A DNA stretch of 64,000 nucleotides from Agromyces sp. H17E-10 (GTDB lineage Bacteria; Actinomycetota; Actinomycetes; Actinomycetales; Microbacteriaceae), in contig NZ_CP095042.1 of assembly GCF_022919715.1 (NCBI RefSeq), positions 2,666,001 through 2,730,000 of the forward strand, in the 5' to 3' direction. The stretch's first letter is position 1; each line of letters opens with the position of its first letter. Positions 25,157-44,426 of the stretch are shown piece by piece. The notes beneath the pieces were generated by a model. That model saw only the letters and a list, made by a program, of their open reading frames with translations, made no database searches and was not told where the DNA came from. The translations under genes were made by a program, and so were the position numbers.

Positions 25157-25227
25157 TCACGCGCAGCGCGCCGGTCCGCCCCGCTTGCTCCCCTGATGAG
25201 ACCGTGCACGACCGACTGCGGTGAGTG

Positions 25228-25695
25228 CTAGAGACCGCGGATCAGCGCTTGAATTCCGGCGTATTTCGGCCGGAGCTCGCCCTCGGCCCGGTAGCGCCGG
25301 AGGGTGTCGAATCTGGTCGGAGGAGCGGAATCGATGATGTGTGCGACGCGCGGGGACGACAGCATCGAATCGATTCCTGACTTCCAGATGGTCCACGTCG
25401 CCCGAGTGACGCGGCCCTGCTCGTACATGTCCGCTTCGTCCTCGCAGAGTTGGACGTAGGCGAACAGTGCTTCTTGTTCGCTTCGTCTTCGATGCCATGG
25501 GCCGCGTGTTCCGAGTTGAGCTTCAACACTCAGCCGGTCCATGATCGCCCAGTAGCGCTGGGAGTAGAGATGCTCGAATTGTCGGTGGCCTTGTCGTGTC
25601 ATGAGCCACAGCTGGAAGACCGCGAAGATGCCACCAACGATGACGACGATGCCGCCGATCGCTGTGACCCAGTTGATGAAGTCTCTGATGTCCAT
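25228..25695 (-). CDS. Small membrane-anchored protein at the end of the DISARM operon
   Basis: A 155-residue protein starting MDIRDFINWVTAIGGIVVIVGGIFAVFQLWLM, an N-terminal transmembrane helix at about residues 8-32. A helical cytosolic domain follows with conserved-looking RYWAIMDRL, EDEADMYEQGRVTRATW and YRAEGELRPKYAGIQ. No enzyme motif is visible. It starts six bases after the stop of the HNH gene, so it is almost certainly cotranscribed with the DISARM genes. I do not recognise it as a described DISARM component. It may couple the system to the membrane or be a passenger. Confidence 0.7.
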   Translation of the reverse strand: MDIRDFINWVTAIGGIVVIVGGIFAVFQLWLMTRQGHRQFEHLYSQRYWAIMDRLSVEAQLGTRGPWHRRRSEQEALFAYVQLCEDEADMYEQGRVTRATWTIWKSGIDSMLSSPRVAHIIDSAPPTRFDTLRRYRAEGELRPKYAGIQALIRGL

Positions 25696-25701
25696 TGTCT
25701 G

Positions 25702-26592
25702 CTACGCCGCAAAGCCTTCGAATCGCTCCGAGAGACGTTCCCGCGATGGCCAGTCGACCTTCCGCTTAGGCAACGCAAGCGTCCGTCCGTGCATATCCTG
25801 CAACCCGTGGCGCAGCATCGGTCCATCTATCTCGTCGAGGAGGTCGCGGTCGATGCGCACTTCGTAGTCCGGTGTGATTCCCAGGAGGTTCCGGTCGTAC
25901 GAGGCATGGTGGATCTTGCAGAGAGCAAGTCCGTTGGTGATCCGGGCCAGTCCCGAGAGGTCGCCATCGGCGACGATGTGGGCGGCATCGAGCAGCTCTG
26001 CGTGCTTCAGCGAACAGACCGCGCAGGTCGCGTCATATGCGCGCAGCACTCGCGCACGGAACATCGGCTGATGCAGCCGCTGCCGCACGACCCGTTCCGC
26101 GTAACGGCGTTCGTCGGGAGTGGGCGCGAGCGGGTCTCCGAAGAATCGAAGCGTTTCGTCGAGTGCAATGTGAACCTGCCGCGCGTCCGGGTCGTCGTGC
26201 ACGATGTACACGGGGTAGTAGGCCACGTAATAGCCGTCCCGTACGCCGTGGAAGTAGACGAGCGGTTCGCCTTCCGCGTAGGCGTTGCGGAGCTTGACAT
26301 TGTCGCCGCCGTCTTTCGACTGGTACGAGTATCGGACCAGGCCATCGGGGCGGATTTCGTCGTCGTATCCGTGGTTCTTGGCGCTGGTCATGATCGACAG
26401 CGTCGAGGCGAAATCGGCAGGGTTCCGGATGCCGCGTGCCTGATCGAGCAGCGGGATCCGCTCGCCTCGGAAGCGATAGTTGATGAGCTCGGCCCGGCTG
26501 AACTCGTAGGTGCCCGCGAACATGAGTTCGTCGAGCCACCGGAACACATCCTGGCGAATCGCCTGCTGCTCCTCGCGTGATCTCACACTCAT
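25702..26592 (-). CDS. HNH endonuclease with SRA/YDG-like N-terminal domain
   Basis: A 296-residue putative restriction endonuclease (COG3440-like). Residues 180-245 are an HNH nuclease: CAVC at 190-193, AHI at 204-206, NG at 220-221, C225, HH at 228-229 and YDRN. Residues 60-135 (SAKNHGYDDE, DGLVRYSYQ, DNVKLRNAYAEGEPLVYFHG, YYPVYIV) resemble the SRA/YDG modified-cytosine reader in the order of Y-D-D, N, L, G-x-P and R/HG elements. It could therefore be a modification-dependent enzyme or the R subunit of a type II system. Its start overlaps the vsr stop by four bases. Confidence 0.82.
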   Translation of the reverse strand: MSVRSREEQQAIRQDVFRWLDELMFAGTYEFSRAELINYRFRGERIPLLDQARGIRNPADFASTLSIMTSAKNHGYDDEIRPDGLVRYSYQSKDGGDNVKLRNAYAEGEPLVYFHGVRDGYYVAYYPVYIVHDDPDARQVHIALDETLRFFGDPLAPTPDERRYAERVVRQRLHQPMFRARVLRAYDATCAVCSLKHAELLDAAHIVADGDLSGLARITNGLALCKIHHASYDRNLLGITPDYEVRIDRDLLDEIDGPMLRHGLQDMHGRTLALPKRKVDWPSRERLSERFEGFAA

Positions 26593-27029
26593 CCCCTCCG
26601 CTCGGTCTGGTCCGGATAGGTGCGGACGGCGGCCTCGATGGTGGCCGCAACTCGCGCAGCGACTTCATGTTCCCAGAAACGCAGCACGGTCCACCCAGCG
26701 GCTGCAAGACGAGCATCGGTGTCGCGGTCGCGTGAGATATTGGCTTCGAGCTTCGGCGCCCAATAGTCCGCGTTCTGTTTAGGGTGGGTCGCGTGCTCGG
26801 GGCAGCCGTGCCAGAAGCATCCGTCGATGAATACGGCGACCTTCGCGCGCGTGAAGACGATGTCCGCTCGACGCCGTCGCAGCGTCGCGAGTGGCGCATA
26901 GTCGACTCTGTATCGCAGTCCGCGAGCGTGCAGCAGCCTGCGAACCGCGAGTTCGGTCGTCGTGTCGCGCCGCTTGTTCGAGAGCATCGATTTCCGTGTG
27001 CCCTCCGACGTCGCCCAGGAGTCAGCCAT
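26589..27029 (-). CDS. vsr: Very short patch repair endonuclease (Vsr)
   Basis: A 146-residue Vsr protein. Catalytic and structural elements are RADIVFTR with Asp56, FIDGCFWHGCPEH at 67-79 with the metal and zinc ligands, and WTVLRFWEHE near 113-122. Vsr nicks the DNA strand with T at T:G mismatches created by deamination of 5-methylcytosine, so it normally protects genomes that carry a C5 methyltransferase. Here that partner is likely the methylase gene at 40818, at the other end of the same operon. It overlaps drmC by eight bases and the HNH gene by four. Confidence 0.95.
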   Translation of the reverse strand: MADSWATSEGTRKSMLSNKRRDTTTELAVRRLLHARGLRYRVDYAPLATLRRRRADIVFTRAKVAVFIDGCFWHGCPEHATHPKQNADYWAPKLEANISRDRDTDARLAAAGWTVLRFWEHEVAARVAATIEAAVRTYPDQTERRG

Positions 27030-27738
27030 TCGCGTTACCTGGGGCCAGCTCGTAGAGATGCCCCTCGTTCAGCAGTGCGGAGAACCGCTGACGCATCCCC
27101 GAGGCGAATTCGGAGTCGCGGATGATCACACCGGCCTCGAGGTTGCGTTCGTGCGCCGCCTCGCTGAGATTCGCACTCGTGATGAAGGCTGCTCGCGAGT
27201 CGACGATCACCACCTTCGAATGCTGAATACCGCCATCCGGGCCGGGCTTGAATCCCAAGAATCTTGCGCCGTACAGCTGCTCTTGCATCCACCCGGCTGT
27301 CTTGCCGCCGTTCAGCTTCGGGTCGACCAGCACGGTCGTCTTCACCCCGCGGGCGATGGCCTTCCACAATGACTTCAGGTACGCCGACGTGGGGCTGGCC
27401 GAGTAGGTCGAAGCGAACACGTCCTCCGTCGCCTCGTCGACGAGATGGGCGAGCGCGGCCGTCGTGTGGTCGCCGTCTCCAGGGAACGTCGGCCCGCTCC
27501 ACACAGCGCGCAAGTCGGTCCCGTTCGCCGCCGCTGCCGCGGCGAAACCGCGGAGCACGGCGGCGAGCTGATCAGCGCCGAGAACTTCGAAGCCCTCGCC
27601 CAGCAGCTTCTGCGCGGCCGGATTGGTGAGCTTCGATGCGGCCTTCGAAAGGCTCCCGTCGATCTCGAGGCTCGACGCCAGCTTCAGCGCCTGCGATGGC
27701 GACACCACGCGTGCCAGCTCCTCGAGCGCCCCGCTCAT
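27022..27738 (-). CDS. drmC: DISARM protein DrmC (phospholipase D-like)
   Basis: A 238-residue protein with one PLD-type HKD motif: QHSKVVIVDSRAAFITSANLSEAA, with His173, Lys175 and Asp180, followed by ERNLEAGVII. The N-terminal half is helical. DrmC is the PLD-fold member of the DISARM core trio; its role is unclear and it was reported dispensable in one system. The start is one base after the drmB stop, and the gene overlaps vsr by eight bases, showing tight coupling. Confidence 0.92.
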   Translation of the reverse strand: MSGALEELARVVSPSQALKLASSLEIDGSLSKAASKLTNPAAQKLLGEGFEVLGADQLAAVLRGFAAAAAANGTDLRAVWSGPTFPGDGDHTTAALAHLVDEATEDVFASTYSASPTSAYLKSLWKAIARGVKTTVLVDPKLNGGKTAGWMQEQLYGARFLGFKPGPDGGIQHSKVVIVDSRAAFITSANLSEAAHERNLEAGVIIRDSEFASGMRQRFSALLNEGHLYELAPGNANG

Positions 27739-27739
27739 C

Positions 27740-29827
27740 TCAGCTCACTACTCCTGCCTTGACGCCCACAAGCAACGGTGCGAGTCCATGCGACCCCTCG
27801 TGCAGGTCGAGCACGAAGCGACGATCGAGGAACCTGTTCGCTCGTTCGCACGACGTCTCCGAGAGGAAGGCGCAGAAATGGCACGCGGCGCCGTGGAGGA
27901 AGTCCTCCTGATCCTTCGGCACGCGGTGCGCGCAGATCGGGTCCGACGAGCAGCGCTCCGCACGATGCAGTGCCTCGAGCATGACCTCTTCGAGCCGTTC
28001 GGTTCGCGCGAGGTCGACGAGCCCGCCGAGCGTCCCTTCGCTGTCTGGTGACGTGGTCGTGATCAGGATGCCTGCCGCCGGCGCGCGGTCGTCCTCTTCC
28101 CGCCACGCGTAGATTCGCTCCGAGAGCGAAGCCGAACCGTACCCGCTCGACATCGCCATCTCTCGGATGAGCAGGTGCGAGAGTGTGTGCAGCGCCCAGT
28201 AGCGGGGCGGCGGCATCCGCTCGTCGGCGTCGAGCTCGGCGGCGGTGCGACTCTGCCGCCGGGCGAGGTTGCGTTCATGCGCCGCGACGTGATCCTCCCA
28301 TACTCGGCTCTCGAGCACCGACGCCTCCCAAGCGGCGATCACCGGCTCGGAGAATCGGATGAACATTCCTTCGCCGCGATCCTCCGTCGCCGGCACCCAT
28401 TTCGGCCTCCCCGAGATCGCGATTGGCACCACGCGAGCTGCGTCGTCGCCGACGCGGTCGAGGGCGTCGATGCGCGTGAACCCGATGAAGGCGTTGGCCT
28501 TGCGAATACGGTCGACGGCGATGACCTCCTGCACGGCGGAGCCGAGCGACGAGGCCACAGCCACCGGGTGCACCTTGAACCCGTTGCGCCGGTCTTCTGC
28601 GAGGAACTCGTCGGGATGGGTGAGCGTCGCCCACTCGGGCACGAGCAGATGATTCGGGTCGTACCCGACCGGCCCTGCAGCAGCGGGCGCGAGCGGCGGA
28701 AGGTCGCCCTTCGCGACCTGGATCGCCTGCCAGAGGTCCTCATCGGAGATGCCGGCGAACTTCTCCACCATGTGCTCGGGCGCGAACTGGCGCCAGCCGA
28801 CTACTGAGGCGAGCGAGGTCAGCTTCGCGACTTGCGCGGGTGGCAGTCCCAGCACCTCGTCGACGGTGTCGGCAGGCTTCGGCTCTTTGCGCGACGGCAG
28901 TACGAGCACACTGATCGTCGCAGGGAACCACTGGTTGGCTGCTCCCAGCAGCATCAGTCTGACCTCGCCGTCGCACGGCTTATCGGCCGGCGCGAACGTC
29001 GGCAGGTGCGGGTGGCGGCCGCGGCACTTCGGCAGGGATGCCTCGCCACCGGCTCTCGTGATCTCGGCGATGTTGCGCGACGAGTCGCATTGGACGCAGA
29101 CGATGGAGACCTGCGGTCCCAAGTTCGAGCGCCACTCGCGCATTCTGAGCTGAGGATTGGCGACGCATTCCTTGCGGTTGCCGTCGGCGCCGTGCACCCA
29201 ATCGTTGTAGGGGAACTCGTCGAGGTGCCCGTTCGTGCAGGCGATGAGATAGCGCGCCGGCACGGCGACGCGATCGCGCCCGTCGCCCTTGAATCGTCCC
29301 CTGCATTTGCGGTGCACGAACCGCGCCATGTCCGGCCGATGCTTGCGGGTGTTCTCGAACTCGAAGACGTTCGCCGACACGGGCGCGAGCAGGTCGCATC
29401 CGGTGCATCGGAGCCACTGCGGGAACACTCGCGTCGGAATACCGATCGGCGTCGTGTCGCCGCCGAGTTCATCGGGCAGCCACGGTGGCTGCCTTAGCTC
29501 CCCGATTTGGGTCCCGAGCTGGCGCCGCACTGCCTCGATGAGCCGCGGCACGAGAACGAGCGTCGGGTCGCCGCCCATGCGGGCATACGCGGTATCCCAC
29601 GAATCGATACCCTGCGGCATCACCGAGAGGTGCGGCAAGTCGACCGACGATCCGATGCCCGACGTGTAGAGCATGGCGTTCGGGCGGATGGAACCGACGC
29701 GGGCGCGATTCTTCCCCTTCTGCGGCCCGTCGGCGAACGGGTCGGCGACATCGCCGGGGATGCCGACGCTCTCAGCGGCCGCATCGTCGTTCTGAGCGGT
29801 AACCATGGTTTCGATTTCGTCGCTCAT
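27740..29827 (-). CDS. drmB: DISARM protein DrmB (DUF1998)
   Basis: A 695-residue protein. Cysteine pairs occur in the N-terminal half (CTGCDLLAP, HRKCRG, CTNGHLDEFPYNDW, CVQCDSS), and the DUF1998 helicase-associated region is at the C-terminus: HTLSHLLIREMAMSSGYGSASLSERIYA and GAACHFCAFLSETSCERANRF. DrmB forms a complex with the helicase DrmA. ATG at 29827 overlaps the drmA stop as ATGA, and AAGGAT lies upstream, so the longer in-frame start is rejected. Confidence 0.95.
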   Translation of the reverse strand: MSDEIETMVTAQNDDAAAESVGIPGDVADPFADGPQKGKNRARVGSIRPNAMLYTSGIGSSVDLPHLSVMPQGIDSWDTAYARMGGDPTLVLVPRLIEAVRRQLGTQIGELRQPPWLPDELGGDTTPIGIPTRVFPQWLRCTGCDLLAPVSANVFEFENTRKHRPDMARFVHRKCRGRFKGDGRDRVAVPARYLIACTNGHLDEFPYNDWVHGADGNRKECVANPQLRMREWRSNLGPQVSIVCVQCDSSRNIAEITRAGGEASLPKCRGRHPHLPTFAPADKPCDGEVRLMLLGAANQWFPATISVLVLPSRKEPKPADTVDEVLGLPPAQVAKLTSLASVVGWRQFAPEHMVEKFAGISDEDLWQAIQVAKGDLPPLAPAAAGPVGYDPNHLLVPEWATLTHPDEFLAEDRRNGFKVHPVAVASSLGSAVQEVIAVDRIRKANAFIGFTRIDALDRVGDDAARVVPIAISGRPKWVPATEDRGEGMFIRFSEPVIAAWEASVLESRVWEDHVAAHERNLARRQSRTAAELDADERMPPPRYWALHTLSHLLIREMAMSSGYGSASLSERIYAWREEDDRAPAAGILITTTSPDSEGTLGGLVDLARTERLEEVMLEALHRAERCSSDPICAHRVPKDQEDFLHGAACHFCAFLSETSCERANRFLDRRFVLDLHEGSHGLAPLLVGVKAGVVS

Positions 29828-32800
29828 TTCGCATCCTTCTTCGTGGTGAACGTCCACTTCGGTGCGTTGCCGCCGAGGGTTTCGGCGAGCTTGCCCGGGA
29901 AGGGCGAGACCAGTAGATCGATCTCGGGCTGCACCTCGCGCATCGAGTTCGCGACCTGGAAGAGGCGATCACCCTCTTCTCCGATCGAATCCTCGGGACT
30001 CACGAGCAGCGGAACGACGTGCTGCTTCGGCAGGGTCTTCCGCGCGTACGTGAGCGCTCCGCTCTGCGCATCGGACCGCTCGGTCCATTCGTCGAGGCGC
30101 AGCACGAGCTTGCTCATGGCGAGGTCGGCGGCGTGATCATCGCCCGCTTGTGCGACTCGGGCGACGATCTTCCCCACCAGTTCATCGACCGCCGACCGCC
30201 GCTGAACGATGCGGCCGGCTCCTGTTGTCGCGTCGGGCGAGAGCGAGGCGATCGTCGTCGCGGCATCCATCACCCGTGCGGCCGACACGATGAGTCCGGT
30301 GAGTCCGCGCTCGAGGGAGGCCTCCGAGAACGGAGTCACCGACAGTGCCTCCACGTTCGCGTAGAAGGTGTTGTGGTAGTGCTCGAACTGCTCGTAGTGC
30401 GCCATGTCGCGCGGGCGCGATCGGTTCGCGAGCGTCACGACGAGCCCGGGCTTGGATGCCTCGCGGCCGACGCGCGACGACGCCTGGATGTATTCGGCGG
30501 TGTTCTTCGGCTGTCCGACGATGAGCATAAGCCCGAGGCGCGGTACGTCGACGCCCACCTGGAGCATCGAAGTCGCGAGCACGACGTCGAATGGAAGGTC
30601 GCGGTCCGGCAGCTTTTGGCCGGCCTTGAGCTTCGCAGCGATCTCGGCACGGCCGAGCGTCGAATCGAGCGAGGGATCGAACGGTGACGCGAGATGCGTG
30701 AGCGTGCGCCCGATCTCCGACGACGAGATGCGCGAGGTGAGTTCGCCGATCTTCAGCGGAGTTCGACGCCGCAGGTACCCGCTGTTCTTGTCGGGGTTGC
30801 TCACGCGCGTCGTAACATCGTCCTCGAGATACCGTCGCATGCCGGCGAGCTCGCGCGTCGCTGAGAAGTAATCCACGAGCGTGAGGTACGGCTCGGCTGC
30901 GGCGCCGTGCGCGTCGAGCAGCTTCTGCCCGGCGAGCAGCAGGATCTCGCTGAGACGGATCTCGGCGAGGGTGAGCCGCGCACCGTGCAGGCAGACGCCG
31001 AGGTACAGCCGACCCGGCTCGTCCTCGAGCGGCACCTCCTTCGAGAAGAAGGTGTCGCTGACCGCGAGCACCTGCGGCGGGAAGACCTCGACGTCGCGGG
31101 CGTAGAGCTTCTGCACCTGATCGCCGGCCTTGCGCACGGTGGCGGTCGAAGCGATGACGAGCGGTTTCACGGGCTTCGTGGATGCCTCATCGCCGAGCTC
31201 CCAGCTCGAGAGCACGTCGATCGCGCCCTCGAAGAGCCCGACCGCTGTGCCGAGTGCGCCGGTGATGAGGTGGAGCTCGTCTTGGATGATCAGGTCCGGT
31301 GGTCGGAGCCGGCCGACGGTCGTCACCTGTGTGGGCGGGTACGTTCGCCCGTTCTTCTTCGACGCGTTGTGATGCTCGGCGCCGCAGACGCTCGCGTCGG
31401 TGTCGGCGTGCTTGTACCCGTGCCGTGGGCACTTCTTCGCGACGTACCCGAACAGGCTCGCGGCCTCGCCCTCGCGAGCGAGTCGCGCGAACTTGTCGAC
31501 GGTGGCGAGCAGGAACGTCGGCGGATGCCGGTAGATCTCGTCATCGACTGTGAGCACGGGCAAGCCCTCGACCGCCGAGCCACCGGCGGCGAACGGACAA
31601 CCTGAACGTTTGTCGCCGCAGTACACGCGGATGCGCTTCTCGACGTCGTCCGCTTCGACGTTGCTCTTGCCGTTGATCGCGGTACCGCACCACGGGCAGT
31701 GATCGAACTGCAGCACCGACAGGCCGTACGCCGAGTTGCCCTCGCTCTCGCGGACATCCTTCACCTGCTCGGCTGCCTCGGAGAAACGTTTCGGGCTGAC
31801 GCTCGACCCGACCCAGAGCCCGATACGGAACGGCACCGAACCCCAGGTCGCCGGGTCTTCGCGACGCACGAGTTCAGCTGCGCAGAGCAGCGTGGTCGCA
31901 CGGATGAACTGCTGCGAGGTGAGCAGTCGAAGCGTGTAGCGCATGAGTACGGCGACGCCATCGCCTCCGTCGAGCATCCCCTCCGGGGTCTGCACCGAGC
32001 CCTGCAGCCGGCGGATGCCGAACGTGAACGCCGCCAGCCCGAGGTAGGCCTCGGTCTTGCCACCACCGGTCGGGAAGAACAGCAGTTCGGCGCGCGGGAA
32101 GTCGGAGGACCGCCGCTTGTGCGTCGGGTCGACGACCGACGGGAGTTGCATGAGGATGAACGCGAGCTGGAACGCGCGCCATGACGCGGCTTTGTCGCCC
32201 TTTGCGTTGATCTTGTCGACGGCTTCGGCGATCTTCAGCGTGGGCTGCTCGATGCGAAGCGCGGCGACCTGCGACCGCAGTCGCTGGTCGCGCATCGTGC
32301 GGTTCATGAACCAGAAGGCCTTGCGCGCCTCCTCGCTCTCCGTGAGCAGGTTGAGCCCCTCGCCGAGGCGCTTCAATGCGGCTCGTCCGTCCGCGACGCC
32401 GATCTCGCCCTCGGTGCGCAGGTGTGCAGGAAGGTGCGCGTTCTTCACCTCCTCCTTGTCGAGCCAAGCGGAATACGCATCGACGATCGGCTGCAAGCCG
32501 GCGACGAGCTCCCCTGCGGAGGCCTCCATGAGCGCACGCATGCTCAGCACCGCGCCCTCGACCTCGGGAGCGCGAGTCTGCGGCACCTCAGCGGTCGGAA
32601 GCCAGGTGGTGCGCACGGCAATCGCGCGCCGCGCATCGTCGAGGGCGACGTCCCAGGTCGCCGACGCGGTGCGGCCGACGGCGAATTCGAGCCGGTCGCG
32701 GTAGAGCAGGTCGAGTCGTCTTACCTCGGGGTCGCGAGACTTGCGGTCGTGCTCGATCGCGTCGCGAGTCGGCAGGAATACCGCTGATGAGCCGTCGAGC

Positions 32801-33516
32801 GAGGTGACCTCGAGCTCGGCCTGGAACAGCCAGAGCTTCGGTGGCAGCTCGCGCCCGGTAACTGCCGTGTTCAGAAGTGCCGCCTCGACGACGCGGCTGC
32901 CTTCGTGGTCGAATACCTCGACTGAGATTGCGACGTCGTCGCCGAGATCCCGCCGCGTGGATTCATCGCTCGGAACGGCTGCGAGATCGATCTCGACAGG
33001 TACGTCGAACGGTGTGCGGTCGTAGTAGGTCTGGATCTTGCCGGTGTCGGGGTCGGTTTCACGGCGCGAGGCGTATCGGCCCCAACGTGCAGTGAACCGC
33101 AGCGAGGTCGTGTCGGCTGCGACCTGGAAGCGCAGACCCATCGAAGACGGCGCGATGATCTTGGACTCCGGCCCGCGGTCCTCGTCGGGTTCGCTGGGGG
33201 AGGCTTCGCCGACCGATTCGTCTTCGTCGACCGGCACGCCCTGCACCTCATGGGCGTCGGAGAGATCTGAGACCGCGAGGGTTTCGTCGTTACGGACGTC
33301 GTCGAGCGAGGTCGGCTTCGGCATCGAGCTGGCCGCGCTCGACGCGGCGCCCTCAAGGAGCGAGATCGGCGCGAGCGCTCCGGAGAGGTAGCGGGCACGT
33401 GGCGTGCCGACGATCTCCTCGTTCGGGCCGTCCCACGGGCCGACCAGGTCACGACCGAGCAGATCGAGCAGCTCGCCGCGCACCTGTGCCGACGTGATCG
33501 TGGATGCCTCGGCCAT
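29824..33516 (-). CDS. drmA: DISARM helicase DrmA
   Basis: A 1230-residue SF2 helicase. Walker A is PTGGGKTEAYLGL near residue 485, QDELHLITG near 745, ASTATV near 790, and the C-terminal motifs TSMLQVGVDVPRLGLMLIVGQPKNTAEYIQASSRVGRE near 990-1020. An acidic, probably disordered insert lies at about residues 60-130. DrmA with DrmB is the DNA-binding core of DISARM, recognising 5'-ended or unmodified phage DNA. ATG at 33516 overlaps the drmMI stop (ATGA), which fixes the start 52 codons inside the longest frame. Confidence 0.96.
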   Translation of the reverse strand: MAEASTITSAQVRGELLDLLGRDLVGPWDGPNEEIVGTPRARYLSGALAPISLLEGAASSAASSMPKPTSLDDVRNDETLAVSDLSDAHEVQGVPVDEDESVGEASPSEPDEDRGPESKIIAPSSMGLRFQVAADTTSLRFTARWGRYASRRETDPDTGKIQTYYDRTPFDVPVEIDLAAVPSDESTRRDLGDDVAISVEVFDHEGSRVVEAALLNTAVTGRELPPKLWLFQAELEVTSLDGSSAVFLPTRDAIEHDRKSRDPEVRRLDLLYRDRLEFAVGRTASATWDVALDDARRAIAVRTTWLPTAEVPQTRAPEVEGAVLSMRALMEASAGELVAGLQPIVDAYSAWLDKEEVKNAHLPAHLRTEGEIGVADGRAALKRLGEGLNLLTESEEARKAFWFMNRTMRDQRLRSQVAALRIEQPTLKIAEAVDKINAKGDKAASWRAFQLAFILMQLPSVVDPTHKRRSSDFPRAELLFFPTGGGKTEAYLGLAAFTFGIRRLQGSVQTPEGMLDGGDGVAVLMRYTLRLLTSQQFIRATTLLCAAELVRREDPATWGSVPFRIGLWVGSSVSPKRFSEAAEQVKDVRESEGNSAYGLSVLQFDHCPWCGTAINGKSNVEADDVEKRIRVYCGDKRSGCPFAAGGSAVEGLPVLTVDDEIYRHPPTFLLATVDKFARLAREGEAASLFGYVAKKCPRHGYKHADTDASVCGAEHHNASKKNGRTYPPTQVTTVGRLRPPDLIIQDELHLITGALGTAVGLFEGAIDVLSSWELGDEASTKPVKPLVIASTATVRKAGDQVQKLYARDVEVFPPQVLAVSDTFFSKEVPLEDEPGRLYLGVCLHGARLTLAEIRLSEILLLAGQKLLDAHGAAAEPYLTLVDYFSATRELAGMRRYLEDDVTTRVSNPDKNSGYLRRRTPLKIGELTSRISSSEIGRTLTHLASPFDPSLDSTLGRAEIAAKLKAGQKLPDRDLPFDVVLATSMLQVGVDVPRLGLMLIVGQPKNTAEYIQASSRVGREASKPGLVVTLANRSRPRDMAHYEQFEHYHNTFYANVEALSVTPFSEASLERGLTGLIVSAARVMDAATTIASLSPDATTGAGRIVQRRSAVDELVGKIVARVAQAGDDHAADLAMSKLVLRLDEWTERSDAQSGALTYARKTLPKQHVVPLLVSPEDSIGEEGDRLFQVANSMREVQPEIDLLVSPFPGKLAETLGGNAPKWTFTTKKDAK

Positions 33517-36500
33517 CAGAACATCGCTCCTTCGGGCTTCTCGGATTCCTCGAGGCTCTTGCCGCGCTTCGCCTTCTTCGGGTTCTGCGGCGCCTCGATC
33601 GCCGCGCGCCGGTGGTTCTCCTCGAGCAGCCGATCGAGGATCTCGACGCGGGCCGCCGGGCTCACCGTCCACCGCTCCATCTGCCGGTAGGTGTGGAAAC
33701 CGTGGTCGAGCGGGATGTCGGTCCAGCCGTAGGCCTCCATCACCGCTTCGTCGATCTGCATGTGGATCGACCGGATGAGGTCGACATCGGCATCCCCTTG
33801 GACATCGGGGGAGTTCACGAGGTTGTACAGCGCTGTAAGCCCGAGCTGACGGCGCAACATGATCTCGCGTCGATCGCCGTCGAGCTGCTCGCCGAGCCCC
33901 CGCATGCGTTCACTATTCGTTGGGCGCGGCAACGTTCCGAAGACTGATTGCGGGGAGTAACGAACTCGACTCTCAAGCGTCGAGCTGTACGTGAAGGACC
34001 AAAGCAAATGTGCAGCGGACGATAGGAACGCGAGATCAGCTCCATCGTTCAGTGCCAAAACGACGACCTGTTCGCTGAAGACCTGCGTCGATACGCAGAG
34101 CGAAGGGAGGACGACCTTGCTTACGCGCGGAATGGCGATGACCTGGGCCGTATCGGCGATTGCACGGTAGAGGCCGGGACGTCTCTCCGCATACTGCCAC
34201 CAACGATCCGGGAGAGGGGTGCGAAGGACGAAAGTACCGTCTGGTCGCGTTCGCCGTCGTTCGGGCAGAACGAGCTCTTCGACTCTGCCGAACGCAGCAG
34301 GAAACATGCGGGCGCGAGACTCGCTACTGTCGAAGAAGTCGATAATCATTCGGCTGGCGTCGTTTGAAGGTCTTGAGACGAGGTCTTCACCACTTAGGTA
34401 TGGGCGGATGACCCTTTCGGAGCCCGGGTCCTCTTGGATGAGTGCCTGTGCCTCATCACTGGTCATTGCGAATCCGGTGCCAAGAGGACTTGATCCCTGG
34501 AACGCGACGCCTGCATTCTCCCGAAGCTCAAAGGGTATGCCGTTACCGCGACCCTGCGGTTCAAGCATCGAGGATACTTTCGAGACAGGTACTCCATCTG
34601 CGATGACGCGAACCTCGGCGGAGAGATCCGAGTTCGTCGCCCAGATGGCCGCAAACTCCAAGTTGGCGTTTCGAGAAGGCCATTTCGCGCTCCTCACAGC
34701 CCGGAATACGGTGACCGAAACACCTACTAGCTGGTCGAGACCAACTTCGCGGGTCACGCCCTGAGCCACGGTGTTAGTTGCGATGAGGCCGAATGTTGCC
34801 TCCGACGCGCGCATGAGAGCGTGGCTGCGCAACACGAAGTATGCGACAAGGTCCGCGGTACCCGGCTGCCCGTCTGCAACCACCTCGACCAGCAATGATC
34901 GTGCGCTTGCACCAATGGCCCCCACAAGCTTCTGGCTGCCAAGGAACGGCGGATTCCCGATGATCGCATCGAATCCGCCGTGGTCGTGAACCACATCGGG
35001 TGCTTCGAGGATCCAGTGCAGCGGCTTCCAGCGCGCTTCGCCGGTGTCGACGGTCGGCGTGAGTCCGGCATCGATGATCGCGTCGAGCCGCCGCCGCTCA
35101 CCTGCCGAGCCATCGACCGGGTACGCATCGCGGAGCGCCTCCGCGAGCTCGTCGTAACGCTCCTCGAGCTTGCGACCGGGCTTCCCGCCCTCGAGCAGGC
35201 CCGCGGCGATGATGCCGTCGGCGACATCGCGGAGCTTCGCTGTGACGTGCTTCGATTGCTCGAGCAGGGCGCGTTTCGCGCGGGTCGAGCGCATGCGGTC
35301 GGCGTCGTCGACCTGCCCGGAGGCGAGTTCGCGGCGGAGCCGCGCGGCATCCTCGAGGTCCTTGTCGACGTCGAACGCGGCGAGCTGGCGCTTCACCGAA
35401 TCCTTCGGGTAGATGTGCTGTGCCTTCAGCTGCGCTTCGGTCGTCACGCCGAGCAGCGAGTTGCCGTGGAACACGCGGTCGTCGACGAACGAGAACGGCT
35501 TGCCCGGGTCCATCGAGATGAGCCAGAGCGAGAGTTTGCACATCTCGACCGCCATGCCGTTGATATCGGCGCCGTAGAGGCAGCGGGCGACGATCTCGCG
35601 AACTGCGAACCGTTTCGGGTCGTCGCCGCCGATCGGCACGCCTTCGAGTTCGCGTGCCTCGATGAGCCGATCGGCGAGGTACCGCGCGGCCGCGACGAGG
35701 AATGCACCGGATCCGGCGGCGATATCGGCGACCTTGAGATCGAGGATCTCGGCCGACGAGCGCAGCTTCCAATGCGTCGAATCTTCGACATCGAGCGGAC
35801 CCGGCGAATAGACGAGCGGCTCGAGGGCGTGCAGCACGACTTCTTCCGCAAGGGAACGGGGCGTGTAGTGCGTGCCGGTGTTCGCGCGCTGCGACGACTC
35901 GGTCATGACGAGGCCGCCAGCGGGCACCACGTAGGGGAAACCGCGCAGGTCGTCGCGGATGAGCGCGTGGAACGGCTCGAGTCGCGCGGCGAGTTCGTCG
36001 TCGCCGAGCAGGGCGTGCCGCAGCCGCGTGCGGGCGTCGGCCGCGGCATCCGCATCGACCGTGCCGTAGGCTTTCGCGATCTGACCCGCGGTGCGGGACT
36101 TCGCGTGCTCCTGCGTCTTCTTGAGATGCGCGACGAGCTTTTCACCGAAGTCCTTCGGCGACGAGGCATCCGTTGCGAGTTGTTCGAGTTCGCGGAGCGG
36201 GATCTCGGGCTCGAAGCCCGCCTTGCCGTGCAGACCGACGATCACCTCGGCCACGTACTCGGCCGAGTACCCGAGCAGGCCCTCGTAGACGTACCCGATC
36301 TGCTCGACGTCGAGGTCGCGGAACGAGAGCTGCATGGCCCCGTCTTCGATGGTCTGCACGGCGCGGAGTACTGCGAGCATCGCTCGGTCGGTGAGGCGCA
36401 CCTGCAGGCGGCCCTGCGCATCCGTCGCCTGCAGCCACGGGAAGCGACCTGGGTCGAAGAGCGAGCCGCCGTAGGCGGGCATCCGCGCGTCGGGGTACGA

Positions 36501-37565
36501 GACGCCGTTGAACACCGCATTGCTCGCGGCGAGCAGGCGGTGCCACGCCTCCCACGAGTGGTCGAGGGCCTCATCCGACGTCGCCGTCGCCGCGCGCTGG
36601 AGCTGCTCGCGAAGGCCCGCGATCGCATACGACGACCGGTAGAGGTCGTGCTCGGGCAGGAGCCCTCGCTCCTCGGCGAAGAGCAGGAAGACGATGCGCA
36701 TGAGCATCGTGACGGCGCCCTCGTAGACCAGTTTCGGGTCTTCCGGTAGCGGCGATGAGTCGCCGTGGGCGATCGCGCGCAGGTGCGTGTCGGACATCGA
36801 CTGCAGCACGAGCTCGACCGCGCGGCGAACCTGGTCGCCGAGCGCCTCGGTGATCTGCTCGGCGCTGGCAACGCTCTCGGCGAAGAGGAGCGGGAGACGC
36901 TTCTCGGGCTGGCCGCCGGCGATCGACGCGAAGCTCGCGAGGGAGAGGAACGCGTCGCGGCTCGGGCGTTCCTCCCGCCAGAGGAGGGCGTCCCAGACGC
37001 CGCTCGCAGTAGTGACATCCTTCGCCGCCGAGACGAGCGCCCACCAGCGACCATCGGTGACGATGCCGATCGTCGTGCCGGTCTCGCGGAGAAGAACCGC
37101 CATGCGGTCGATCGCGTTCGCCGACCACCCGTCGGCACCGACCGAGCGGAGGTTCTCGGTCCGGTCGACGACCGTGACGAGGGCTGCGGGGGCGTCGCCG
37201 TCGCCGCCGTCGAGGGCCGCGAACGGAGTCACCATCACGGCCCCGTTCGGCGACTTCGCTTCGATGCCCGTCGGCGAGAGCTGGAGGTCATCCGACCAGT
37301 CGAGCAGGGTGCGCAGCACCGCCTCGACCCAGCGATCGCGGCTCTCCGCGTACTCTTCGGCGCTCGACGACCACGCCGTCGACCAGCGCGCGAACTCGTC
37401 GACGAAGGTCGCATTCACGTCGTCGACCGAGGCATCCGCCTTCGGCAACCCCTGCGGGTAGAACGACTTCAACGCCGTCCGCGAAAGGAAGGGACCGTCG
37501 GCATCGATGATCGACAGCCATTCCCATTCAGGGGTGCGGCTCTTGCGGAACGGTCTAGCGGCCAC
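33516..37565 (-). CDS. drmMI: DISARM adenine methyltransferase DrmMI (Eco57I-like)
   Basis: A 1349-residue N6-adenine methyltransferase. The SAM motif I is DIAAGSGAFLVAAARYL near residue 615 and the catalytic NPPF is in AIIGNPPFLGSQ near 870. Residues about 890-1220 form the likely target-recognition region. In class 1 DISARM this enzyme marks host DNA as self. GTG at 37565 has GGAG seven bases upstream and overlaps drmD by 11 bases. The recognition region (33920-34930) is visibly lower in GC: three sampled 60-base lines have 30, 35 and 33 G/C, against 48 and 39 in two lines of the N-terminal half. Confidence 0.93.
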   Translation of the reverse strand: MAARPFRKSRTPEWEWLSIIDADGPFLSRTALKSFYPQGLPKADASVDDVNATFVDEFARWSTAWSSSAEEYAESRDRWVEAVLRTLLDWSDDLQLSPTGIEAKSPNGAVMVTPFAALDGGDGDAPAALVTVVDRTENLRSVGADGWSANAIDRMAVLLRETGTTIGIVTDGRWWALVSAAKDVTTASGVWDALLWREERPSRDAFLSLASFASIAGGQPEKRLPLLFAESVASAEQITEALGDQVRRAVELVLQSMSDTHLRAIAHGDSSPLPEDPKLVYEGAVTMLMRIVFLLFAEERGLLPEHDLYRSSYAIAGLREQLQRAATATSDEALDHSWEAWHRLLAASNAVFNGVSYPDARMPAYGGSLFDPGRFPWLQATDAQGRLQVRLTDRAMLAVLRAVQTIEDGAMQLSFRDLDVEQIGYVYEGLLGYSAEYVAEVIVGLHGKAGFEPEIPLRELEQLATDASSPKDFGEKLVAHLKKTQEHAKSRTAGQIAKAYGTVDADAAADARTRLRHALLGDDELAARLEPFHALIRDDLRGFPYVVPAGGLVMTESSQRANTGTHYTPRSLAEEVVLHALEPLVYSPGPLDVEDSTHWKLRSSAEILDLKVADIAAGSGAFLVAAARYLADRLIEARELEGVPIGGDDPKRFAVREIVARCLYGADINGMAVEMCKLSLWLISMDPGKPFSFVDDRVFHGNSLLGVTTEAQLKAQHIYPKDSVKRQLAAFDVDKDLEDAARLRRELASGQVDDADRMRSTRAKRALLEQSKHVTAKLRDVADGIIAAGLLEGGKPGRKLEERYDELAEALRDAYPVDGSAGERRRLDAIIDAGLTPTVDTGEARWKPLHWILEAPDVVHDHGGFDAIIGNPPFLGSQKLVGAIGASARSLLVEVVADGQPGTADLVAYFVLRSHALMRASEATFGLIATNTVAQGVTREVGLDQLVGVSVTVFRAVRSAKWPSRNANLEFAAIWATNSDLSAEVRVIADGVPVSKVSSMLEPQGRGNGIPFELRENAGVAFQGSSPLGTGFAMTSDEAQALIQEDPGSERVIRPYLSGEDLVSRPSNDASRMIIDFFDSSESRARMFPAAFGRVEELVLPERRRTRPDGTFVLRTPLPDRWWQYAERRPGLYRAIADTAQVIAIPRVSKVVLPSLCVSTQVFSEQVVVLALNDGADLAFLSSAAHLLWSFTYSSTLESRVRYSPQSVFGTLPRPTNSERMRGLGEQLDGDRREIMLRRQLGLTALYNLVNSPDVQGDADVDLIRSIHMQIDEAVMEAYGWTDIPLDHGFHTYRQMERWTVSPAARVEILDRLLEENHRRAAIEAPQNPKKAKRGKSLEESEKPEGAMF

Positions 37566-40500
37566 CGGAGGTCTCCAGTTTCTCGACGTCTTCGGGGGTG
37601 AGGGCGAACACGAGCGCCGCGACGAAGGTGTGGGCCTGCACGTCGCGGTAACGGCGCTCGACCGATTCGCGCTCGACGCGCTGCTCCTCGTCGAGCAACG
37701 AGAGGCGTGTGCGCACGCGGGCGAGGTCCTGCTCGCGTTGCTGTCTCTCCTCCGCCAGCTGGAACAGCATCTCCTCGCCGGCACGACGGGCTTCGTCAGC
37801 CGTTGCGAGGGTACCTTCGAGCGTGCTCCGGAAGCGATCGAAGATCTGATCGACCGCGGCGAGGTCGGACTCGCGGCGACCCTGCAGACTCGCCTCGACC
37901 TCGAGGCGTCGCCGTTCCGCACGCCGTGCGATGGCGTCGGCAACGCGGGCTCGCATGCCATCGGAGTGCGACGCATCCGAGTTCCAATGCGAGACGATTC
38001 GAGCGAGTGCACCGGGCCCAGGCATCGAGATTCGGGAGCCGTCGAGCGTGGTCACAAGGAGGTCTTCGGCCTTCTCGATGCCGAGTTCCCGTCGCTGATT
38101 GAAACGAGTACCCGCGAGGAAGACCTCCTCGTGCAGCCGCACACCGCCTTCGCCGACGAGAACGAGCCGTGCGACGCCGGCAGCGAACGACTGGTCGAGG
38201 CCGTCGACGACGACGGCGCTGACGCCGCGTACCTGGTCGGTGCGCGTCCACACCTGGCCGCGGAGTTCACGAGCAGCGCGCTGGATGAGCGGGTGGCCGA
38301 GGTGCGCGTAGACGACGTCGGTCTGGTGCTTCGCGCGCTCCTCGTCGAAGGTGATCGGGCGGAGGACGCCCGGGGCGAGGCGGGTATCGAGGCCGGCGAG
38401 GGCGGGAACCCACGTCTTCGAAAGACCCGAGGGAACCTCGAAGAGTCGAGTTTCGTACTTGTCGAACAGCTCGATCAAGGCCGGTTGGCCGGAGACGCGC
38501 AGGCCCTCCTCGAACACTCGCAGCAGGTTGTCCTCGTGCAGGTGCATGCGGTCGCGCGAACCCTCCAGCCGCTCGGCCAAGCGCGTCAGATCGGCGCGTT
38601 GCTTCTGCTCGGCGTTCAGCACGCGGTTGATAACCTGCTCTCCAGCATCCGTCTTCACCTTGCGCGCCGGACCCTCGCCGAAACCGAGTTCGCGCTGCAG
38701 GTCGGGCGCGATGATCTCGTTCGCGTGCACACCGTCGTGGTCTGCGTTGGCGATCTTGCTCGCCAACCGGGCGAGCAACTCGGTGTCTTTCGCATACGGG
38801 CGGTCGTTCGACTTCGCGGCGCGCGGGTGCCACACGAGCGGTGTTTCGGTCTGGCCGAACCGGTCGATGCGGCCGATGCGTTGCTCCAGCCGGTTCGGGT
38901 TGAACGGGATATCGAAGCTCACGAGCCGGTGGCAGTGATTCTGCAGGTCGATGCCCTCGCCCGCGGCATCCGTCGCGAGCAGAATGCGTATCGGCTCGTT
39001 CCTCGGTGACGCCGTGAAGCGGGCACGGATCTCCTCGCGGGTCTCGGCATCCGTCGAGCCGTCGATAATGGCGAGCCGATCGCCTCCGAGGCCCCGCGAC
39101 TCGAGCACATCCCGCAGCCACTCGAGCGTCGACACGTACTCGGTGAAGATCACGATGCGCTCATCGCCCCAGCCGAATCCGGGCACGATCAGCTCGCCGT
39201 CGATGAGCGCGAGCAGCGCCTCGAGCTTGGTGTCGGGACGCCCCTCGTATCGGTTGCCCCAGGCGATCAGTTGCTCGAGATCGGTCTTGTCCTGCTCCGT
39301 GAGCGCGACTTGTGCCCGTTTCGCGGTGCGCAGGGCCTCGAGCTCGGGCTGCTCGAGGCGGCCCTCCTCCTCATCGGCCGCCTCGTCGCCGAGGATGTCG
39401 TCGTAATCCGGAAGCTGCAGGTCATCGTCGCCTCTCGCAGCCAGGTACGCCTCGGCGGTGCTCGCGAAGGCGACCGGCGATGAGAAGAAGCGCTTCTTGA
39501 GGATCAGGGTCGCAAGGTCGGAGGCGCGCTTGCCGCGCTCCTGCTTCACCGCCTGATTCCGGCGTCTGGTGAACGCGATCAGCGTGTCGTAGGCGTCGGC
39601 CTCGTCATCGGTGGGATCGAACACGAGTTGCTTCACCTCGCGGAGCATGAAGCCTTCGTCGGGCAGATCGCGCTTGAGGCGGCGTACAGCCACCTGCTTC
39701 AATGCTTCCTCATCGAGGTCGGCGCCACGGGCGAACCGCTGCGGGTCGATCATCTCGAGCAGCGCCGTGAACGACTCGGTGTAGCCGTTGTGCGGAGTCG
39801 CGCTGAGGAAGAGGCGATGCTCGCAGAGCTCGGCGAGTCGGCGAACGGCGATCGTGCGCTGGCTGTCGACGGCATAGCGGGCCTTGTCGCCGTTCGTTCC
39901 GCGGCTCGGCGTCGCCGGTGCGACGTGGTGGGCCTCGTCGACGACCAGGATGTCGAACGCACGGCGGTCGGCCGTCTTGTTGTCCTTCACGCTCGCGTAG
40001 ACCTCTTCGAGCATGCGTTCGGCGCGGGGCGACGGCAGCCACGACATCGACACGATGACTCGCGGGTAGACCTTGAAGGGGTTCGCGTGCACGCCGAACG
40101 TGCGGCGGAAGCTCTTCATCGTGTCTGAGTTGACGATCTCGAAGTGCAGGCCGAACTTGTCGCGCAGTTCCTCCTGCCATTTGATGACGAGACCCGCCGG
40201 GCAGACGACGATCACCGAGCGGGCGCGATGGCGGAGCAGGAGCTCCTGGATCACCAGGCCCGCCTCGATCGTCTTGCCGAGGCCGACGTCGTCGGCGAGC
40301 AGCATGTTCGCGCGCGGGGCGTCGATTGCGCGCCGGAGGGGCTCGAGCTGGTACGCCTCGACCGATGCGCTGGAACGGAAAGGAGCCTGGAGCGTTCTCG
40401 GGTCGGCGCTCGTCAGCGCACCCCAGCGGAGCGCATCGACGTACGCGGCGAACGTCTTCGGGTCGTCGAACCGATCGGGACGGATGGTCTCGGGGAGGCC

Positions 40501-40755
40501 CTGCTCGCGCACGACGCTGCGGCCGGGCTCGAGCTCCCAGATCACCGTGAGCTCGTGGCCGTAGTGCTCCTCTTCGACGGACTGCAGCGTGATCGCGTGC
40601 TGCAGCTCTGCTCGGCCGTCGTCGGCGCTGCTGCGGGGGAGCGACTGCGCCGAGACATCGGTGACCGACCAGCGCGCACCGCGCACGTTGACGAGGTTGC
40701 CGATTTCCGGCACCTCGAGCGAAGTGATTCGCGTCTCTTCATCGATGACGGTCAA
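37555..40755 (-). CDS. drmD: DISARM SNF2-like helicase DrmD
   Basis: A 1066-residue SNF2-family ATPase. Motif I is DDVGLGKTIEAGL near residues 155-167, DEAHH is near 275, SATPHNG follows, and the C-terminal motifs include FTEYVST, TDAAGEGIDLQ and EQRIGRIDRFGQ near 628. A long coiled coil with many Arg and Glu ends the protein. DrmD is the marker of class 1 DISARM. The start is taken as TTG at 40755, with GGAGGAAGGA about nine bases upstream; no ATG fits the family N-terminus better. Confidence 0.94.
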   Translation of the reverse strand: MTVIDEETRITSLEVPEIGNLVNVRGARWSVTDVSAQSLPRSSADDGRAELQHAITLQSVEEEHYGHELTVIWELEPGRSVVREQGLPETIRPDRFDDPKTFAAYVDALRWGALTSADPRTLQAPFRSSASVEAYQLEPLRRAIDAPRANMLLADDVGLGKTIEAGLVIQELLLRHRARSVIVVCPAGLVIKWQEELRDKFGLHFEIVNSDTMKSFRRTFGVHANPFKVYPRVIVSMSWLPSPRAERMLEEVYASVKDNKTADRRAFDILVVDEAHHVAPATPSRGTNGDKARYAVDSQRTIAVRRLAELCEHRLFLSATPHNGYTESFTALLEMIDPQRFARGADLDEEALKQVAVRRLKRDLPDEGFMLREVKQLVFDPTDDEADAYDTLIAFTRRRNQAVKQERGKRASDLATLILKKRFFSSPVAFASTAEAYLAARGDDDLQLPDYDDILGDEAADEEEGRLEQPELEALRTAKRAQVALTEQDKTDLEQLIAWGNRYEGRPDTKLEALLALIDGELIVPGFGWGDERIVIFTEYVSTLEWLRDVLESRGLGGDRLAIIDGSTDAETREEIRARFTASPRNEPIRILLATDAAGEGIDLQNHCHRLVSFDIPFNPNRLEQRIGRIDRFGQTETPLVWHPRAAKSNDRPYAKDTELLARLASKIANADHDGVHANEIIAPDLQRELGFGEGPARKVKTDAGEQVINRVLNAEQKQRADLTRLAERLEGSRDRMHLHEDNLLRVFEEGLRVSGQPALIELFDKYETRLFEVPSGLSKTWVPALAGLDTRLAPGVLRPITFDEERAKHQTDVVYAHLGHPLIQRAARELRGQVWTRTDQVRGVSAVVVDGLDQSFAAGVARLVLVGEGGVRLHEEVFLAGTRFNQRRELGIEKAEDLLVTTLDGSRISMPGPGALARIVSHWNSDASHSDGMRARVADAIARRAERRRLEVEASLQGRRESDLAAVDQIFDRFRSTLEGTLATADEARRAGEEMLFQLAEERQQREQDLARVRTRLSLLDEEQRVERESVERRYRDVQAHTFVAALVFALTPEDVEKLETSGGR

Positions 40756-40817
40756 ACCGATCGTCCTTCCTCCGGATGCCAGCAGAGCCTTTCAGTATGC
40801 CGGGATCGGCGTCGGCT

Positions 40818-41993
40818 TCAAGCCGGCAGCGCGTTCGGCGATTCGCCCGTCTGCCCAGTGATCGCGCGGAACTTCAGGATCTCCTCGAAGATCGCTGACC
40901 CCAGTTGTGGGGGTACCGCGTTGCCGATCATGGTCGCGAGAGCCGACCGGGTCGGGCATGCCGAGAAGTCGAAGTAGTCGGGAAAGCCTTGAATGCGTGC
41001 GGCCTCGTGCGCGGTCAGGGCGCGGGGGAGGTCGGGATGCATGTAGCGGCCCTGTCCGATACTGCCGAAGCCGCTGGTGATCGTCTGCGCGGGCTCTGTC
41101 CATTTAAGGCGGCCGTACATCGATTTGTACGAATGGGAGTCCTGGTGACAGGTGGGCCGAAGGCGATTCGGGAGGTCGTATTCGTCGTTGTCGAGCAGCC
41201 ACTGCATGCGCGTCAGGTTGTCGGCCTTGGCCTGAGGAGCACGGTCGATCAGGGAGTCGGATTCGACTCCCACAAGATCGCCGATCGCCCACTCGAGATC
41301 GTGTTCGATCGGGTTGGCGGAGATGTTCGCGAAGAGATCTTCTGGCGGGATTTCTCCCCGCTTGGTCGCGAGCAGGATATGGCGCCTGCGCGTCTGAGCG
41401 ACGCCCAGTGAGTCGACCCCGACGACCTGGTGCTCGACCTGGTACTCGAGGCTCTTCAGGTGCCGCTCCGCGCGGGCCACTACGCCCTCGCCGTCATGCC
41501 GGTCGCGAAGCACAGCCGGGACGTTCTCGATGATGATGACGCTCGGGTCGAGGACCTCTGCGGCGCGCACCATTCGAAGGTAGAGCGCATTCTTCGCATC
41601 GACTCGTCGCGTGTGGTTGTTGAGGTTGCTGTGCCCTTGGCAGGGCGGACCGCCGACGAGCGCGGTGATGTCGCCGAGTTCGCCCTTCAGTCGACGTTCA
41701 GCAAGTGTGAGCGGCTCACCGAGCGTTCCATCGAAGTACGTTTCGATCGATTCGGCCTCCACGCGTTCCGCCTCGACGAAGTTCGCCGAGTACACCTCGG
41801 TCGCGAGCGACTCGAAATCGACGGCGAGTGCAACTTCGAGGGCTTGCTCATGAATCTGGAGAGCCTGGGCGATACCGAGCGTGAGTCCGCCGCAGCCCGC
41901 GAACAAATCGACCAGGCGGATCTTTTCCGAGCCGGCACTGAAATCCGGACGTTCGCGCGCTCGCAATGGATGCCGAGAGGCCACCGTCGTCAT
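40818..41993 (-). CDS. C5-cytosine DNA methyltransferase
   Basis: A 391-residue Dcm-type methylase. Motif I is DLFAGCGGLTLG at about residues 29-40, motif IV is GGPPCQGHSN with catalytic Cys118, motif VI is IIIENVP at 154-160, motif VIII is AQTRRRHILLA, and motif X is MIGNAVPP near the end. The region between VIII and X is the target-recognition domain. Class 2 DISARM uses a cytosine methylase (DrmMII), but this operon is class 1, so the gene is extra and may instead pair with Vsr and the HNH nuclease downstream. The gap to drmD is 62 bp. ATG at 41993 is the start. Confidence 0.95.
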   Translation of the reverse strand: MTTVASRHPLRARERPDFSAGSEKIRLVDLFAGCGGLTLGIAQALQIHEQALEVALAVDFESLATEVYSANFVEAERVEAESIETYFDGTLGEPLTLAERRLKGELGDITALVGGPPCQGHSNLNNHTRRVDAKNALYLRMVRAAEVLDPSVIIIENVPAVLRDRHDGEGVVARAERHLKSLEYQVEHQVVGVDSLGVAQTRRRHILLATKRGEIPPEDLFANISANPIEHDLEWAIGDLVGVESDSLIDRAPQAKADNLTRMQWLLDNDEYDLPNRLRPTCHQDSHSYKSMYGRLKWTEPAQTITSGFGSIGQGRYMHPDLPRALTAHEAARIQGFPDYFDFSACPTRSALATMIGNAVPPQLGSAIFEEILKFRAITGQTGESPNALPA

Positions 41994-44386: not shown

Positions 44387-44426
44387 TGTTGACCAGACAA
44401 CCGGCGGGCATTGAAGGGGGAGCCTG

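Follow-up and report, generated by a model that had tools for sequence, protein, structure and literature searches.

Comparison with described defence systems

DISARM and Druantia type II are the main described systems with which we compare a cluster of eleven genes in Agromyces sp. H17E-10 (GCF_022919715.1, contig NZ_CP095042.1, positions 2,666,001 to 2,730,000). The coordinates below are those of this 64,000-nucleotide (nt) stretch, called the window. Its genes predict a class 1 DISARM joined end to end, on one strand and over about 25 kb, to a Druantia II-like pair.

The DISARM of Serratia sp. SCBI belongs to class 1. It has both an N6-methyladenine (m6A) and a 5-methylcytosine (m5C or 5mC) methylase, and methylated DNA reduces the ATPase activity of DrmAB (Bravo et al. 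2022, PMC9142583). The Agromyces cluster also has adenine and cytosine methylase genes, but unlike the Serratia operon it adds genes for Vsr, an SRA-HNH-like nuclease and a 155-amino-acid (aa) protein, and druF-druE, after drmC (PMC9142583). A first-pass annotation of the window had treated two kinds of methylase in one DISARM as a departure from the known classes; both are present, but this is not new, because the Serratia operon has both (PMC9142583).

In PADLOC, DruG is a requisite of Druantia type II, and canonical type II was identified in Proteobacteria only (PMC8565338). As in Druantia type II, DruE2 and DruF2 are encoded by adjacent, overlapping genes in the cluster, and a DruM2-like methylase lies on the same strand (PMC8565338). 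Unlike in Druantia type II, no DruG match is among the PADLOC matches listed for the 11 cluster proteins (the first 25 for four proteins of the DISARM side), and the methylase is 15.7 kb off, beyond DISARM (PMC8565338). Because of the lack of a DruG match, we name the pair Druantia II-like. An inactive McrB-like protein is described for Druantia I and II (Bell et al. 2025, PMC12458937).

In E. coli, SRA-HNH enzymes are toxic to Dcm+ strains, and a search with Dcm by the TagI authors gave no likely methylase gene in the TagI host (PMC6212794). The HNH protein of the cluster is like TagI in its N-terminal SRA fold (predicted), C-terminal HNH domain, length of about 300 aa and actinobacterial host, and unlike TagI in that a C5 methylase gene, to all appearance intact, belongs to the same run of genes (PMC6212794). 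Arrays of ARMADA II and Druantia III in E. coli showed synergy against some phages (Bell et al. 2025, PMC12458937). The Agromyces cluster likewise holds two co-directional systems with YprA-family helicases, but unlike those arrays it consists of class 1 DISARM and a Druantia II-like pair, with a single C5 methylase possibly shared (PMC12458937). Our literature search, which left subscription papers mostly outside, found no title or abstract opening that described a DISARM-Druantia union. DISARM with both kinds of methylase is already known from Serratia; the unusual part is its union with a Druantia II-like pair, with one C5 methylase.

Gene content and junctions of the cluster

The eleven co-directional genes run on the minus strand from 41993 down to 16681, in the order C5 methylase-drmD-drmMI-drmA-drmB-drmC-vsr-HNH-155-aa gene-druF-druE. 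The C5 cytosine methylase gene (40818..41993; Pfam PF00145, 1.6e-45; PADLOC PDLC00033, 1.2e-105) is followed by drmD, encoding an SNF2-like helicase (37555..40755, TTG start as called), which scored 1198 bits in PADLOC and 1160.7 bits against the NCBIfam equivalog DISARM_DrmD with a cut-off of 610. Next come drmMI for an adenine methylase (33516..37565; PADLOC 1531 bits), drmA for a helicase (29824..33516; PADLOC 1004 bits), drmB for a DUF1998/MZB protein (27740..29827; PADLOC 224 bits; Pfam MZB) and drmC for a PLD-family nuclease (27022..27738; PADLOC 184 bits; Pfam PLDc_2). DrmD and DrmMI with DrmA, DrmB and DrmC in one gene string indicate a class 1 DISARM, as predicted from PADLOC, NCBIfam and the junctions.

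Behind drmC stand vsr, for a very-short-patch mismatch endonuclease (26589..27029; PADLOC 58 bits; NCBIfam TIGR00632 127.1 bits, cut-off 97.85), the gene of a TagI-like HNH nuclease with a predicted SRA domain (25702..26592; Pfam HNH_2 over cut-off; weak structure model) and the gene of the 155-aa protein (25228..25695; two weak plasmid matches). The last two genes are druF (22038..25064; PADLOC DruF2 1.4e-204) and druE for a YprA-family helicase (16681..22041; PADLOC DruE2 1467 bits; helicase motifs by text match), so both DruE and DruF, as required for Druantia type II, were found. Known motifs, sought by text match in eight proteins, were present in all of them: the methylase (with GGPPCQ among its motifs), DrmD, DrmMI, DrmA, DrmC, Vsr, the HNH protein and DruE.

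The genes are tightly packed, with start codons as picked by a simple gene caller. The gap between the methylase gene and drmD is 62 nt, exactly as the first-pass annotation had it. The drmD/drmMI, drmMI/drmA and drmA/drmB junctions overlap by 11, 1 and 4 nt, respectively; drmC and vsr overlap by 8 nt, and vsr and the HNH gene by 4 nt. The claim of start-stop overlaps from drmD to the HNH gene is right for all junctions but one, as drmB and drmC are separated by a 1-nt gap. The 155-aa gene follows the HNH gene after 6 nt and is itself followed, 163 nt further on, by druF, which shares a 4-nt overlap with druE. The order proposed earlier from the C5 methylase to the 155-aa gene agreed with the open reading frame coordinates, PADLOC and the NCBIfam names. 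An operon end at 25228 had also been proposed; the gene string does extend to that position, but the run goes on along the same strand with druF and then druE after the 163 nt. The earlier idea that the locus is composite was supported: two methylase types and an additional nuclease are encoded in a single, closely packed string.

The gene call over the whole window favoured a plus-strand frame at 25570-26580 over the HNH and 155-aa genes, and the call on the excised cluster gave both. The HNH gene is backed by homology, and the 155-aa gene weakly, by the two plasmid matches. A scan of 24500 to 43000 on the minus strand gave no terminator-like site, but it turned up fewer sites than in shuffles and so carries little weight. 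The promoter scan gave none against 1.5 in shuffles, which is uninformative for a GC-rich genome. We infer that transcription may continue across the 163-nt gap.

The DISARM block and its cytosine methylase

DrmB was searched in 396 genomes of the order, and 39 matched at 1e-30, the own genome included. The loci of the 17 best other DrmB genomes were fetched; 13 had full drmD and drmMI, and 4 were ended by contig ends. Loci L069, L072, L077 and L078, on truncated contigs, are left out of the counts over the 13 complete loci. In 21 of the 38 other genomes the DrmB match was weaker than E 4.7e-112, and from these, loci L080 and L081 were taken in.

The order methylase-drmD-drmMI-drmA-drmB-drmC was kept in three of the 13 complete loci (G254, G284 and G384), with identities of 60-82% (63-67% for the methylase, 80-82% for drmD). 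These three loci had other flanking genes, with no vsr, HNH or druFE match there. The methylase and DISARM thus form a unit that occurs by itself at these loci, which does not support the earlier idea of a DISARM nested inside a restriction-modification-Vsr (R-M-V) set. The gene order recurred for this unit in three genomes, but no second full union was found in the genomes and loci searched.

In two more loci, of G392 and G137, a distantly related C5 methylase stands together with a Vsr immediately upstream of drmD. A C5 methylase gene was therefore directly upstream of drmD in 5 of the 13 other complete class 1 loci and not in 8; in the stretches examined of these 8 there was no C5 methylase by hidden Markov model and no Vsr. 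This does not agree with the statement that ties the cytosine methylase to class 2. The stronger view, that there is no precedent for a cytosine methylase in a class 1 DISARM, was rejected on the same five loci and the Serratia case (PMC9142583). Among the 17 close-DrmB genomes, a C5 methylase (E 1e-10) was beside drmD in 5, only elsewhere in 7 and absent in 5 (G018, G197, G229, G342 and G213). From this split, the C5 methylase looks like an optional part of class 1 DISARM, and so does the cytosine mark.

Compared with the copies in G254, G284 and G384, DrmMI was 58-96% identical per 50-residue block up to residue 900. Over residues 951-1250 the identity was 18-66% with the three copies and 16-50% among the three. 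The hypervariability of residues about 951-1250 suggests that the target-recognition part is exchanged often. The segment 33966-34865 (drmMI residues about 901-1200), overlapping this region, had a GC content at third codon positions (GC3) of 0.63-0.64, against 0.80-0.92 elsewhere in the gene. Low GC3 and hypervariability among four close operons are consistent with specificity swapping in DrmMI.

The C5 methylase upstream of drmD was the only one found in the own genome, and one Vsr was found as well. The methylase tree had 29 rows, 6 of them with long branches or odd composition, and for this reason only the starred clade of eight rows was used (support 100/99). It holds the methylase of the window, the DISARM-heading methylases of G254, G284 and G384, one each from G456, G749 and G551, and one from a Rubrobacter plasmid. 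In G456 a Vsr lies 1.7 kb off with one gene between, and in G749 the methylase adjoins Vsr. In G551 (L162:531-2237) a methylase-Vsr fusion of 568 aa stands ahead of a gene for an uncharacterised 769-aa protein and DrmA-, DrmB- and DrmC-like genes; no drmD or drmMI was seen in this operon, and DruM2 was again the best model for the methylase. The Rubrobacter plasmid has the order Vsr, methylase, DruF-like, DruE2, with a methylase 48% identical to that of the window. One methylase lineage therefore appears to serve both DISARM and Druantia II. The methylase of the window also has DruM2 as its best PADLOC model, yet it heads DISARM genes and its nearest relatives are of DISARM.

In 4 of the 7 clade relatives a Vsr lies close to the methylase, adjoins it or is fused with it, and so Vsr seems to be a common companion of this clade. 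Judged by its known role, a Vsr would be sensible only if 5mC is really made. The Vsr tree had no starred fork and is hence silent on which methylase the Vsr belongs to. A scan of viral contigs with the methylase gave no relative, and the best 5 of 370 phage records with a match were at about 31% identity or less.

The Druantia II-like pair and its relatives

A druF search at 1e-20 gave 14 of the 396 order genomes, including the own genome, and 2 of 60 genus genomes with the own, i.e. one further genome. A scan of genome contigs with one peptide pattern gave 13 druF loci, 5 of them repeating those above. In the comparison of druF loci, a floor of 50 bits was applied to all matches but those of vsr, HNH and the 155-aa gene. 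No close druF was found on plasmids, which gave 3 weak matches. The structure model of DruF (pLDDT 69.5) had no informative fold match.

Of the 14 other druF genomes, 12 (all except G077 and G133) had a C5 methylase no more than 10 kb from druF, against a chance expectation of about 0.15, and 5 had a Vsr within that distance. At the 8 extra druF loci, a C5 methylase was in view at 5. In the cluster, DISARM lies within the 15.7 kb between methylase and druF. Ten proteins beside druF-locus methylases were scanned; NaeI, HpaII, SacI, GIY-YIG and DUF4928 proteins were among them, and 2 had no family. The druFE locus L094 has a C5 methylase together with a distant HNH relative (23%). From the counts within 10 kb, a cytosine mark looks near-regular for druF. 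In the tree, the druF-side methylases belong to several lineages, and the enzyme seems exchangeable.

The HNH nuclease and the 155-aa protein

SRA domains read modified cytosine in type IV enzymes. The N-terminal half of the HNH protein matched an SRA fold in a low-confidence structure model, and its C-terminal part bears the HNH_2 domain with the HNH motifs. These features weakly point to a TagI-like SRA-HNH nuclease that would depend on modified cytosine. In sequence, the likeness to TagI is slight and confined to the HNH part (profile E 0.017), and a weaker PADLOC match, labelled type II restriction enzyme, reached 39 bits.

HNH relatives were found in 9 of 31 other genomes, 7 of them over nearly full length, and 1 of these 7 near DISARM. 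Eleven HNH loci that lie outside DISARM and Druantia clusters were inspected, and none had a C5 methylase or a Vsr in view. The relatives occurred in 2 of the 3 closest genomes with the methylase-DISARM unit against 5 of 28 others, numbers too small for use. In G018 (L067:1039-1917) a relative of 46-47% identity lies about 3 kb past drmB of a class 1 DISARM on the opposite strand, and no C5 methylase was found in this genome. On plasmids, one relative is beside a type I restriction-modification set and another about 6 kb from a phosphorothioation-associated gene.

The 155-aa protein, taken for a membrane protein in the first-pass annotation, does have one apolar N-terminal stretch, read by eye, but it had no family match in PADLOC, Pfam or NCBIfam. 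There was no relative among 197 other order genomes at E 1e-4. Weak relatives (36%) are on two Streptomyces plasmids, one of them near integrase and primase genes.

Genomic island and composition

Two sibling genomes of the same genus, G371 and G418, match the window as far as 9025-9026, and the alignment resumes at 46343-46344. These breakpoints place the cluster within a variable island of 37.3 kb (9026..46343). In the same slot, G418 has a C5 methylase (L113:7227-8459), sister in the tree to the one at the druFE locus of Microbacterium sp. Marseille-Q6648 (L094); from this case the slot may be a hot spot for cytosine-marking defence. GC3, taken over pieces of about 150 codons, was 0.835 for the DISARM core (31 pieces) and 0.707 for the block from vsr to druE (23 pieces; Mann-Whitney p 9.5e-8), and that of the methylase (0.77) was between the two blocks. 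This split points to different origins of the DISARM core and the vsr-to-druE block, i.e. two sources.

On the plus strand, divergent from the cluster, 42089-46217 encodes a UvrD-like helicase with GajB-like PADLOC hits and then a GmrSD_N protein, a candidate further defence pair. Also on the plus strand within the island, 12221-13305 encodes an HTH_17 protein and a PIN-domain protein with overlapping ends, likely a toxin-antitoxin pair. Two segments at about 11050-11409 and 15404-15769 are 88% alike, and the second is inside an Ltp/TM2/PASTA lipoprotein gene (14806-15864).

Proposed working of the cluster and alternatives

We propose, with a probability of about 0.5, that two ready-made systems were joined: a class 1 DISARM headed by its methylase, and druF-druE without a methylase of its own, with Vsr, the SRA-HNH protein and the small protein between, and that the cytosine mark is shared. 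The data under this proposal are gene content, coupling, the single C5 methylase and Vsr, the neighbourhood of druF and the weak-model SRA match; joint transcription, mark sharing and the enzyme activities are what we infer. DrmMI (m6A) and the C5 methylase (m5C) would mark the host. DrmD/DrmAB, and DruE with DruF, would attack DNA or replication intermediates without marks, and one cytosine mark would serve both. Vsr would repair T:G mismatches from deaminated 5mC at the methylase sites, and the SRA-HNH protein may cut incoming DNA with cytosines modified in other contexts, as 5mC or 5-hydroxymethylcytosine (5hmC), which both systems would otherwise miss. Since druF is usually near a C5 methylase and this genome has a single one, the Druantia pair, if it needs a cytosine mark, must share that of DISARM.

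Several points weigh against this proposal. The 163-nt gap upstream of druF could harbour a promoter. The 22 other druF loci (one truncated) had no DISARM genes in the stretch examined, bar short helicase-motif matches; the short drmD/drmA matches (about 43 to 70 residues) in L021, L027, L028 and L029 were not counted as DISARM, and the Kocuria loci L082 and L089 were kept among the 22 though without C5 methylase or druE match. Across the 396 genomes, druF (14 genomes) and DrmB (39) co-occur in this genome only, against an expected number of about 1.4. Selection for the union is thus not supported, although its absence elsewhere is weakly tested by the single peptide pattern. The toxicity of SRA-HNH enzymes in Dcm+ E. 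coli (PMC6212794) suggests that either the SRA-HNH protein or the C5 methylase would be silent, or their contexts never meet. The model of the HNH protein is of low confidence, and its nearest NCBIfam model is a phosphorothioate-dependent enzyme (66 bits, below the cut-off of 180), so that it may read another modification.

The chief rival is stacking in a defence hot spot, in which four independently working items would have come to adjoin: DISARM with its methylase, a gene for repair, a stand-alone nuclease dependent on modification, and the Druantia II-like pair. We consider it a serious possibility, though the less probable of the two. The lack of a second instance favours it, as do the difference in composition between the blocks, HNH relatives with no C5 methylase or Vsr in view, and the 37-kb variable island in which siblings carry other genes, one of them a C5 methylase; UvrD-like and GmrSD-like genes are also next door on the other strand. 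However, start-stop overlaps bind vsr and the HNH gene to drmC, and druF, which elsewhere is regularly near a C5 methylase, here has the sole one found lying past DISARM. An insertion of the DISARM core into a Druantia II operon, parting druM from vsr-HNH-druF-druE, would fit the DruM2 model of the methylase, its intermediate GC3 of 0.77 and the 48% clade member in the Vsr-methylase-DruF-DruE locus of Rubrobacter. We hold it unlikely: the nearest methylases (63-67%) head DISARM without druFE in genomes with no druF match at E 1e-20, so methylase and DISARM were already one unit, and the clade is found also in the DISARM-like operon of G551 without drmD, where DruM2 is again the best model.

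The first-pass annotation had itself preferred a type II set of methylase, Vsr and HNH nuclease split by DISARM, which we find very improbable and have rejected. Methylase and Vsr do go together (G456, G749, G551 and Rubrobacter), Vsr being common with this methylase clade, and L094 has both a C5 methylase and the 23% HNH relative beside druFE. In other genomes, druFE adjoins C5 methylases that are accompanied by nucleases with NaeI, HpaII, SacI or GIY-YIG domains and in some cases also by Vsr, and the 39-bit match bears the label of a type II restriction enzyme. But the HNH protein as the restriction partner was not supported: its model has an SRA fold, and the 11 loci outside DISARM and Druantia were all without C5 methylase or Vsr in view. 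It is also conceivable, though doubtful and somewhat less probable than the insertion, that a 5mC writer and a 5mC-dependent nuclease were paired deliberately. The methylase would mark the host in a context spared by the SRA-HNH protein, or mark the invader for later SRA-HNH cutting (Pgl-like), while DISARM and Druantia would spare the host by means of this mark as well. If this were true, one cytosine mark would gate three effectors, two attacking its absence and one its misplacement.

Meaning for Druantia II and DISARM

In this genome, removing one gene could test the mark dependence of Druantia as well as the sharing of the mark with DISARM. In view of the toxicity of SRA-HNH enzymes in Dcm+ E. 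coli (PMC6212794), the presence of an SRA-HNH-like gene next to a C5 methylase that appears intact raises a second sharp question. The regular presence near druF of C5 methylases of varied lineage, some with a restriction enzyme, suggests that Druantia II may lean on whatever cytosine mark the cell has. The cluster bears on how Druantia II distinguishes self from non-self.

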